A stretch of 64,000 nucleotides of DNA, from contig NZ_FOCX01000022.1 of NCBI RefSeq assembly GCF_900110215.1, positions 1 to 64,000 of the forward strand, written 5' to 3'. Below, one piece after another: positions 43,822 to 48,648 of the stretch. The notes under the pieces are model-generated. The model was not told the origin of the DNA. It searched no databases and was given only the letters and a program-made list of their open reading frames with translations. Both the position numbers and the translations under genes were made by a program. This DNA comes from Halorientalis persicus (lineage in GTDB: Archaea; Halobacteriota; Halobacteria; Halobacteriales; Haloarculaceae). Positions within the stretch are counted from its first letter, which is position 1. Every line of letters starts with the position of its first letter.

Positions 43822-44112
43822 TCCCGACCGGCCGACAGGTCACACCTCGGACTCGTTTTTGGTTCTAGATCATCCAGTCTCCACGCTCGTCTACTCCCTG
43901 ACTGGCACTCGCTCCCGGTCTGGAAGCCTTCGTCTACCGTTCCGACTGCGTGCCAGATTCTGACCGCTGTTTCCCGCCTGCTCGTGTCAGACGACTGTTA
44001 GCCGCTGGGCTGACGCCCTCACATCTGAGGCGAAATTCCGGACTCAGAGCCTCGAACCCGCGATATCGGGGTGTGTGGGATGGTGTCAACCCGCGGATTT
44101 GACCACAAAGCA
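43822..44112. other. Intergenic region before the S-layer gene
   Basis: About 290 bp with no supported gene. A short ORF on either strand lacks family resemblance. It ends in the S-layer promoter. Confidence 0.5.
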
Positions 44113-44120
44113 TTTATAAT
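44113..44120 (+). promoter_or_regulatory. S-layer promoter TATA box and long leader
   Basis: TTTATAAT preceded by purine-rich ACAAAG makes a strong haloarchaeal promoter. Transcription would begin near 44142, giving a 120-nt leader before ATG 44263. Long leaders with hairpins (here CCGCGG...CCGCGG, about 44195-44220) are known for S-layer genes of other haloarchaea. Confidence 0.55.
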
Positions 44121-44262
44121 GAGCACCAGTTGTTCTGACCGTACCCCTAACCATGGTGACAGTATCGAGTACGGTTCGACAGTCTCCCCGCGGCGGTTGT
44201 GCAGGCCGCGGCTGTCCTGCGGGAAAGGTGCTGGCACCGCCCGAAAAGCACAAACACAAACT

Positions 44263-47200
44263 ATGACAGGAACACACGACAAGATTCGCAGTCTGTTCCT
44301 CGCGACGCTGATGGTTACGTCGGTATTCGCCGGCTTCATCGCGTTCTCGGGAGCAGCTGCTGGTGCGGCTAACTCCGCATCATATAGCGGTGTTACTACC
44401 TATTCCGGTACTGACACCGTCTCGATCCCTGAAGATGGATCGGCTACGGTTAGTATCGACACGGCAACGAACAGTGACGATATCATCGCAGTCGCGTCAA
44501 AGGACACTTCGTACTCGTCCAACGACGTGGAGTCCGGAACTAGCTCCGGAGCGGGAACGGTTTCGCTCGATTTCACTGGTGCCGCTCCCGGTGCTTACAA
44601 CGTTTACCTTGGAGCCGCCAGTAGCGGCTCCCCGGACCTGAGCGACGGCGATTCGCTCAGTGACTGGGCAGACGTTGAACTGAGCACCCTCTCGCACGGT
44701 CAGGGTGTCATCGCTTCTCAGAGCGACGACGATCCCACCGAACGCCAGAGCAACCGGTTCGACGCGAGACTCGCTTCCGGTGACACCTACTGGCAGGGTC
44801 AGCGCCTCGTCATCAAGAAGCCTGACTTGGCCGACCAGCAGCTCGATATCCGTGAGACTGAGAGCGCCGACGGTGGCGGCGAACGCATCCCGTCCGGTTC
44901 GCTCGTCCGTGAGGTCTCCCTCGACAGCAACGGTGAAGCGGTCATCAACACCGAGAACCTCGAAGGGACCTATGCGATCACCAACGGTCAGGGTAACAAC
45001 GCAGTCCTCAACTTCAACGACGGTGTCGCTGGACCTAAGGACTTCGCCGATGACGACGGTGCAAATAACGGCGAGTTCGACGACAACGGTGAAGTTGACA
45101 CGGACTATGTCAACAACGGTGACAGCGACACGATCAACGATGTCGTTCAGGCTGCATCCTTCGCCGTCACGTCCCAGAACGTGAACATCGGCTTCCAGTC
45201 CGATGAATCGGCGCAGGACGAGATCTACCTTGAGGCTGACTCAGCTCGGACCGGCTACAACCTGCTGGTCGAAGCTGACGGCCTCGACGACGACGAGATC
45301 GTCAACGTCTTCGACGACGAGTTCGAGGACGGTGACAGCGACAACTCGCTCGGTGACGTCTTCGACGCAAGTGAAGGCAGTGCCGACGATGGTGACTTCG
45401 GTGCTGACCTCTCGAGTGACAGCTACGACGACGGTGTTGTCTTCGAGAACGTCAACAGTGACGCCAACATCACGGCCAACTTCTCGACCGTCGACATCGG
45501 CGACTACGAGTTCTCGTTCGAGGTCACCGACACCGGTGTCTCGGACACCTCGTCTGTCTCCGTGACTGAAGAGGACGACGTCAACGCGGAGATCCTTCGT
45601 GGCGGCGTCGCCACGGCCGCACAGGGTGACTTCGCTGTCATCCCGATCCAGCTCGAAGAGACGGACGAAGCCAAGGTCAACGTCGGCTTCAACGACGTCA
45701 ACTTCAACGCGAGCTTCCGGGTCGAAGACGGTAACGACGACGGTGTCGTTACAGTCGAAATGAACACGTTCATCGCGGGTCGGGAAGACGGCGATCTCCC
45801 GGGCTACGTGATCAACGAAATCGGTACTGATTGGACGGACGACGACGATTCCCGGACGGTGTCTGAGAGCAACGACATCGCGAACGAAACGCTAGACCTC
45901 GCTCTCTCGGCTAGCGACAACGAGGACTCGGTCACTACGACGTCTGGCTCCGACGACATCTCGACCGATGAACTCGGTATGGTCGCCCGTAAGGCGGACG
46001 ACCTAGGCGCCAGTCCGCCGACTGCTGGAGTCGGTATCGAAGGTCCGATGGAACCCGACCAGTACGACGTCAACGTCACCTACCAGGGTAACGAACTCGA
46101 CGTCGGTACGGTCCAGGTCGTCGAGCCGCAGGTCTCGGACATCAAGAGCTGGACGATGCCCGGCGATGTCTTCTCCGACGTGGAGGAAGACGAGACCGCG
46201 GAGATCTACGAGTACGTCAACGCTGGCGAACTGACCCAGACCAACAACGTCGCGGAAGAAGACGTGCTGGTCTACCAGATCCAGTCGACCAGTATGTTCG
46301 GCGCGCTGAAGTTCGTGGAAGAAGGCACGAACGACTACGCGAAGGCGCTGAACAAGATCGCCAGCTACGACAACACTGACAGCTTCAAGTTCTCGGTTGA
46401 GCAGACCGAGGATACTACCTCAGCGAACCAGCAGGAGAAAGAGCTGGTTCTCTCCAACAGCAACAACAACGGTATCAAGGTCGTTCCGGACGAGCGCAAC
46501 TCTTCCCTCTTCGTCGTGATGAAGGAAGATAACCTGCAGCTCGTTCGTGAGGACCTGGAAGACACTGTTGCCGGTGGTACCTTCGGTGGAGAAGCCAACC
46601 TCGGCATGGACGACGGCGAGAGCTACGTCGCCAACTGGACCACGTTCGAGGACTCCGACATCGGTGACGACACGCAGACGGTCACCGACCGTGCGTCCAT
46701 CACCGAGAAGTCCATCGAGTTCGACGTCGACGCGGGTGACGTCATCCGCGTCGCCGCCGCAGAAGGCCAGACGGTCTCTGGCTCCACGAGCGTCGCCCCC
46801 GGTACGGAGCTGAACCTCCGACTTCGCTCCACGGGCGACACGCCGTTCCTCGAGGACCCCGAAGCGATCGTTAGCGAGAACCGCACGTTCAGCACGACGG
46901 TCGATCTCTCCGACCGCGCGTAGAACGCGTCGTTCTCCGCCAACGCGCAGGGCTTCGACGAGGACTACGACACGCCCGGCGTCATCGGTGACGCGCCGAC
47001 CGCGGACGTCACCTTCGACGACCAGGAAGTCTCCCAGCAGGGTACCGTCGAAGTCTCCGGTACCCTCTCCGAGGGTGGCTTCGTCTCGATCCGCTCCGGC
47101 TCCGCCGACGGTGAGGTCATCGGTGCGACCGAATACCTCAGCGAAGGCGACTTCACCGAGCAGATCGAAGTGACGCCGCTGTCCAACGAGTCCACCCTCT

Positions 47201-47517
47201 ACGCGGTGGCTCACATGGACACGAACGACAACGAGGCGCTGGACTTCACCGGTCCCGACAGTCCGGACGGTCCGTACATGTTGAACGGTTCGGCCGTGAG
47301 CGACGACGCCACGGTCTCGCCGGCCAGCACGGAAACGCCGGACACGGACACGCCGGACACGGACACGCCGGACACGGACACGTCCACGCCTGACACCGGT
47401 GGCGACGGTGGGACCGACGCAGCCACGACCACCGAGACTGGGCCCGGCTTCACCGCCGTGCTCGCTCTCGTCGCACTGGTCGCCGCTGCGCTCCTCGCAG
47501 TCCGCCGCCGCGACTAA
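44263..47517 (+). pseudogene. csg: S-layer glycoprotein, interrupted by one in-frame TAG
   Basis: The frame codes for 1084 positions. Signal peptide MTGTHDKIRSLFLATLMVTS continues to about residue 36. A long acidic beta-rich ectodomain has many N-glycosylation sequons. Then come a Thr/Asp/Pro repeat (TDTPDTDTPDTDT, 47335-47390) and a PGF-CTERM tail, ETGPGFTAVLALVALVAAALLAVRRRD. Codon 887 (46921-46923) is TAG; 197 codons follow without another stop and with the same composition. A stop here removes the sorting tail that archaeosortase needs. It may be a point mutation (CAG to TAG), a sequence error, or be read through. Only the long reading has the family's expected C-terminus. Confidence 0.85.
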
Positions 47518-47679: not shown

Positions 47680-48648
47680 ATGATCGAGACGGTGCTGGGC
47701 GTCCTGGCGTGGTTCTCACAGTGGTCGGATCCGCTGGCGTGGCTGGTGGTCGCGACGTTCGTCGTCGGCGCGGTCCTCGACTGGTACGACCTGTCCCGCG
47801 ACGCCGCCCGGACCGTCACCGTCGCCGCGTGGGTGCTGTTCGCGTTCTTCTGGTTCACCCAGATCTACAGCTTCGCGTTCGTCCACAAGAGCATCGTCGA
47901 GGGGATCGGGACGCTGATCGCGGTCCCCGGCAGTCTGTACGTCGCACTCCTGATCCGGCGGGGGCGTGACTCGCTGTTCGTCCTCTCGCGAGCCGTCGCG
48001 GTGATGGGGGCCGTCTTTCTGCCTTTCGAGGCGATCCTCGTCCTGCAGGAAGTCCTCATCGAGCTGGTCACCCGGCAGACCGAGTTCCTGATGAGTCTGC
48101 TGGGGTACCAGCCGGAGGTCGTTCTCGGGAGCACGATCGATTCGAGCCACGAGCCGTTCCGGAACACGTTCGTCTTCCACCCCGAACCGGGCTACCGGAT
48201 CACGTACACGATCATCATCGCGTGTACCGGGATCGGGAGCATGGCGATCTTCGTGGGGCTGATCGCGGCCGTGCGTGCCCCCCTCCAGCGGAAACTCCGC
48301 GCGCTGGCGATCTCGATTCCCGTGATCTACGCGCTGAATCTGGTCCGGAACGTGTTCATCGGGCTCTCCTTTGGCACCATGAAGATGCAGTTGGTTCCGG
48401 AGGCCACCGCGACCGTGTTCGCGTTCGATCTCGCGACGGACCCTGGACTGGTGTCGTACTACTGGGCCGATCGGATCCTCGCCCAGACCGGGTCCGTCCT
48501 CGCGCTGGTCGCGATTACGTGGCTGGTCGTGCGGGAACTCCCCGAGGTCCTGATTGTCATCGAGGATCTGCTGTACATGGCGACTGGAAGCGAGTACGAC
48601 CTCCGCGGGGCGCTCGGGGCCGCGCCCGTGCGCGCCGACGGCGAGTGA
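47680..48648 (+). CDS. artA: Archaeosortase A
   Basis: A 322-aa integral membrane transpeptidase with about eight helices. Active-site positions are in IIIACTGIGSMAIF (Cys) and LNLVRNVFIG (Arg), followed by a YYWADRILAQTGS segment. ArtA cleaves PGF-CTERM proteins and links them to membrane lipid. Its best-known substrate is the S-layer glycoprotein, encoded just upstream, a close physical pairing. Confidence 0.92.
   Translation: MIETVLGVLAWFSQWSDPLAWLVVATFVVGAVLDWYDLSRDAARTVTVAAWVLFAFFWFTQIYSFAFVHKSIVEGIGTLIAVPGSLYVALLIRRGRDSLFVLSRAVAVMGAVFLPFEAILVLQEVLIELVTRQTEFLMSLLGYQPEVVLGSTIDSSHEPFRNTFVFHPEPGYRITYTIIIACTGIGSMAIFVGLIAAVRAPLQRKLRALAISIPVIYALNLVRNVFIGLSFGTMKMQLVPEATATVFAFDLATDPGLVSYYWADRILAQTGSVLALVAITWLVVRELPEVLIVIEDLLYMATGSEYDLRGALGAAPVRADGE

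Follow-up and report, generated by a model that had tools for sequence, protein, structure and literature searches.

The S-layer-type surface glycoprotein gene in the window, a stretch of 64,000 nucleotides from Halorientalis persicus, is interrupted by an in-frame TAG at codon 887, which is probably a recent nonsense allele of the BGTF-type S-layer gene typical of the genus, created by a C-to-T change in a CAG glutamine codon and tolerated by way of alternative S-layer genes. The frame, coordinates and codon number reported by the first-pass annotation were exact, and 197 open codons follow the TAG. The locus is organised as follows.

44096..44262, plus strand: promoter and 5' leader of the S-layer gene, a TATA-like CACAAAGCATTTATAATG and then a long leader ending GACACCGCCCGAAAAGCACAAACACAAACT... 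ahead of the ATG
44263-47517, plus strand: S-layer-type surface glycoprotein gene, whole frame, from ATG at 44263 to TAA at 47515-47517
44263..46920, plus strand: N-terminal 886 codons with haloarchaeal signal peptide, DUF7827 and the start of BGTF; orthologues in the same genus are 75% (G003), 69% (G002) and 63% (G005) identical
46921..46923, plus strand: in-frame TAG, codon 887, where four close relatives read CAG (Gln)
46924..47514, plus strand: 197 open codons with the end of BGTF, DUF7282, a Thr-Asp-Pro stalk and PGF-CTERM, from profile matches and orthologue identity
47515..47517, plus strand: TAA with which the gene originally ended, at a position that agrees with the orthologue end
47680..48648, plus strand: archaeosortase A (artA), intact; scores 306 bits with TIGR04125 (cut-off 75)

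The segment behind the TAG matches the DUF7282 (8.6e-22) and PGF-CTERM (7e-12) profiles and is 63-73% identical to the corresponding part of three congeneric orthologues, and is therefore real coding sequence and no chance open reading frame. It encodes three sequons (NAS, NES, NGS) and a TPDTDTPDTD stalk, which bears out the earlier description of a tail with sequons, Thr-Asp-Pro stalk and PGF-CTERM in an otherwise intact gene. Archaeosortase A was likewise found just downstream, as had been proposed; it starts 162 bp past the S-layer frame and has a counterpart of equal length (322 vs 322 aa, 79% identity) at the same location in the congener G003.

The signal peptide at residues 7-35 scored as that of a haloarchaeal surface glycoprotein (TIGR04207, 35.9 bits; cut-off 24.6), while the Thr-rich stalk and the PGF-CTERM signal (TIGR04126, 44.7 bits) are encoded behind the TAG and not in the same product; in the congeneric orthologues they lie within a single open frame. 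Against NF041335 (surf_glcprot_Halo, cut-off 1100) the gene scored 114 bits as it stands and 139 bits when read through, so that, judged by profile score, its domains appear related to this equivalog, yet it is not a member. HVO_2072 (csg), the ArtA-dependent glycoprotein of the TIGR04216 family, has a signal peptide, a Thr-rich stalk and PGF-CTERM; the body of the window gene, unlike that of HVO_2072, consists of DUF7827, BGTF and DUF7282, and its tail alone matches TIGR04216, with 43.9 bits against a cut-off of 400.

Reading the TAG as Gln places the BGTF domain at residues 826-908. The stop cuts it at about position 62 of the 88 in the profile and removes its last quarter together with DUF7282, the stalk and the sorting signal. 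The truncated product would end within a domain and so does not have the look of a short form made by design; programmed readthrough at a domain border was rejected on account of the same placement. An AlphaFold model of residues 595-1020, again with Gln at the site, predicted DUF7282 well and the BGTF region poorly (mean pLDDT 56.6), and thus does not settle the domain border; a sequence search of solved structures gave no match. Translation would stop at codon 886, and the predicted product would be secreted without the last part of BGTF and without DUF7282, stalk or PGF-CTERM. Because the signal for cleavage and lipid attachment, which is the role of ArtA (PMC7157517), is missing, archaeosortase could not anchor this product, which would be lost or degraded.

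The codon at the TAG site is CAG in G003, G002, G005 and Halorientalis pallida (n=4), all of which have an intact gene, and the flanking codons GCG and AAC are identical to those of the window in G003 and G005. A single C-to-T change thus explains the TAG. Two more distant congeners have a Ser or a Pro codon at the site, which indicates that the residue is not critical; no stop was seen in any of them, so the stop lacks the conservation across orthologues expected of programmed readthrough. The aligned region was surveyed in 293 genomes of the order, of which 248 had matches, and in the list of about 155 best matches the window gene alone has an in-frame stop. As a separate observation, many genomes of genus g6 in the same family (G012, G032, G180, G185, G234, G245 and others) carry two full-length BGTF-type S-layer genes in tandem, about 3-4 kb apart.

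To date the change, we looked for decay in the tail. It contained no frameshift and no second stop, pairwise dN/dS values were similar before and after the TAG, and private amino-acid changes in the window lineage numbered 3 in 63 informative columns after the TAG versus 5 in 159 in residues 597-886. The rate test thus detected no excess behind the TAG and did not narrow the age beyond "recent". In the absence of lineage-specific decay, the change would be recent or the tail would still be in use, two readings that the data do not separate.

The main rival explanation is a mistaken base at this site, arising in base calling, in the consensus or from low coverage, with no break in the true gene. 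In its favour, the TAG is one substitution in a frame that is otherwise perfectly conserved, the tail behind it is free of decay, and the assembly is a draft of 121 contigs. However, synteny with G003 over about 50 kb, with some 40 aligned ORFs, revealed no other split, which indicates that errors are infrequent in this contig and rules out a general sequence-quality problem in the window; moreover, deep short-read assemblies seldom contain consensus substitutions of this type. We consider an error unlikely.

It is improbable that the site is variable or the culture mixed, with a nonsense subpopulation selected by viruses or by laboratory growth alongside intact cells. Under pressure from viruses, S-layer mutants appear easily, and one reached 90% of the population (PMC10544981); the substitution is also reversible, but the assembly holds no second allele and gave no sign of heterogeneity. 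The phase-type variation suggested in the first-pass annotation finds no footing here either, the change being a plain C-to-T substitution with no second allele in the assembly and seen in no other genome among the matches listed.

We also examined whether TAG is read as sense. The 39 strongly aligned ORFs in the window, chosen by score rather than curated and with the S-layer rows excluded, end in TGA (23), TAA (9) and TAG (7). All seven TAG-ending ORFs stop where the orthologue stops, and in six the codon is TAG in both species; TAG is an ordinary terminator here. Pyrrolysine decoding is ruled out, since PylS is absent from the genome (best score 25.9 bits; cut-off 178). There were 69 tRNA hits, and all that could be decoded by ARAGORN or by inspection have sense anticodons. 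A CUA anticodon was not found among the decoded tRNAs, a set that lacks the chromosomal tRNA-Trp and tRNA-Gln(UUG), probably missed on account of long introns, and two weak hits that resisted decoding. Only one tRNA-Gln(CUG)-like gene was found. These two weak hits, tRNA-like and related to each other (L140:101-205, 41.9 bits; L142:101-191, 39.7 bits), share the same acceptor arm and have unusual anticodon and variable regions. About 27-28 tRNA genes for most isotypes are packed into 4 kb on the minus strand of contig C22 (C22:16969-21015, equal to L122:2970-7016), near a PIN-domain-like and a VWA/TROVE-like ORF, named by inspection, and look like a mobile-element or virus-type array; this array has sense anticodons only, which rules it out as the source of a suppressor tRNA.

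These results bear on the proposal, made in the first-pass annotation, that readthrough of the TAG yields a mixture of released and anchored protein; the candidate decoders are near-cognate tRNA-Gln(CUG), a suppressor tRNA and pyrrolysine. The undecayed tail is compatible with it, and with an abundant protein even slight leakage could give useful quantities. Set against this are the lack of a CUA anticodon among the decoded tRNAs, the single tRNA-Gln(CUG)-like gene, the PylS and stop-codon results, the position of an unconserved TAG inside a domain, and the fact that readthrough in archaea has been documented solely for selenocysteine and pyrrolysine (PMC8211752); we regard readthrough as very improbable. 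Scarcely credible is a version in which the TAG persists for its benefit to the cell: tRNA-Gln(CUG), as a near-cognate decoder, would restore the wild-type residue in a few chains, so that most of the protein would be released as a soluble virus decoy and little anchored, with the csg-type protein as the main coat.

A search for other S-layer genes, as the first-pass annotation had advised, recovered at least two genes of the csg family above the TIGR04216 cut-off of 400 (C78, 553 bits; C109, 644 bits) and one cut-down copy.

C78: csg-type gene, 911 codons; signal peptide present, runs off the contig within the Thr-rich stalk
C109: csg-type gene, 820 codons; PGF-CTERM present, N-terminus past the contig end
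C105 (L145:1-2897): csg-type fragment, 357 bits, below the cut-off; N-terminal part missing, adjoins a TnpB gene

The C78 and C109 sequences are 66% identical and hence represent different genes. In this assembly of 121 contigs, with an estimated contamination of 4.1%, the small csg contigs are putatively of the same cell, and C78 and C109, both running off contig ends, may not be complete genes. The TnpB DNA beside the C105 fragment is 97.6% identical to the TnpB just upstream of the csg gene in G002. Among the congeners, the csg family is present in G002 alongside an intact BGTF gene; it was not found in five of the seven (G001, G003, G004, G005 and G006), and the sole match in G007 is a 30-residue signal-peptide fragment. 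This patchy occurrence suggests that the family was gained by transfer. The window gene is the ancestral, genus-conserved copy and the csg-type genes are patchy paralogues that were probably acquired. Of the options listed in the first-pass annotation, that of a pseudogenised paralogue comes closest: "pseudogenised" fits best, but the paralogues are the csg-type genes and not the window copy. A second intact S-layer gene together with lack of expression at this locus had been named as evidence against the original idea; the first half of that pair stands, in that other S-layer genes exist.

The 5' leader of the window gene, about 170 bp, is intact; over 169 bp, DNA identity is 88-92% in four congeners and 74-78% in a further three. 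Several of its segments (CACAAAG.ATTTA, CCGTACCCCTA.CCA, GGTGACA and GACACCGCCCGAAA) also precede the csg-type gene on C78, at about 2735-2925 (L143, minus strand). The protein bodies of the two genes are unrelated except for the signal peptide. Since the conserved leader is partly common to both, both genes look equipped for expression at S-layer level.

Under the preferred reading of a recent nonsense allele, a csg-type glycoprotein would build the cell coat, so that the cell could afford to lose the BGTF gene and might even gain from the loss, for instance if a virus receptor disappears with it. Against this reading, G002 carries both S-layer types intact, and the presence of csg alone does not bring about the loss. 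Strains with two S-layer genes are known to survive losing one and to become virus resistant (PMC9973310; PMC10544981). In Halorubrum lacusprofundi ACAM34_UNSW_2.14, Hlac_2976 was lost while Hlac_0412 remains; two divergent S-layer genes occur there and the loss of one was tolerated, as would be the case in H. persicus, but the loss was a large deletion after virus challenge rather than a change in a single codon. The S-layer mutants selected in the laboratory with virus HFTV1 likewise had a large deletion or small duplications, in contrast to the point nonsense change in the window gene. Two distinct S-layer types, those of H. volcanii and H. gibbonsii, have been described in Haloferax (PMC5867893), a comparable case in which related haloarchaea have S-layers of unrelated types, one type being probably acquired from a distant lineage. 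However, the Haloferax types are split by clade, whereas both types occur in one assembly in H. persicus and one of them is broken. Our search of the literature on Halorientalis S-layers returned nothing relevant.

The TAG allele adds one more case to a type of event already known, and no new mechanism. If real, it would be a natural S-layer gene replacement caught early, with one base silencing the ancestral coat gene while promoter and tail are intact, and it would support the published idea that having two S-layer types lets haloarchaea drop one of them, for example to escape viruses.
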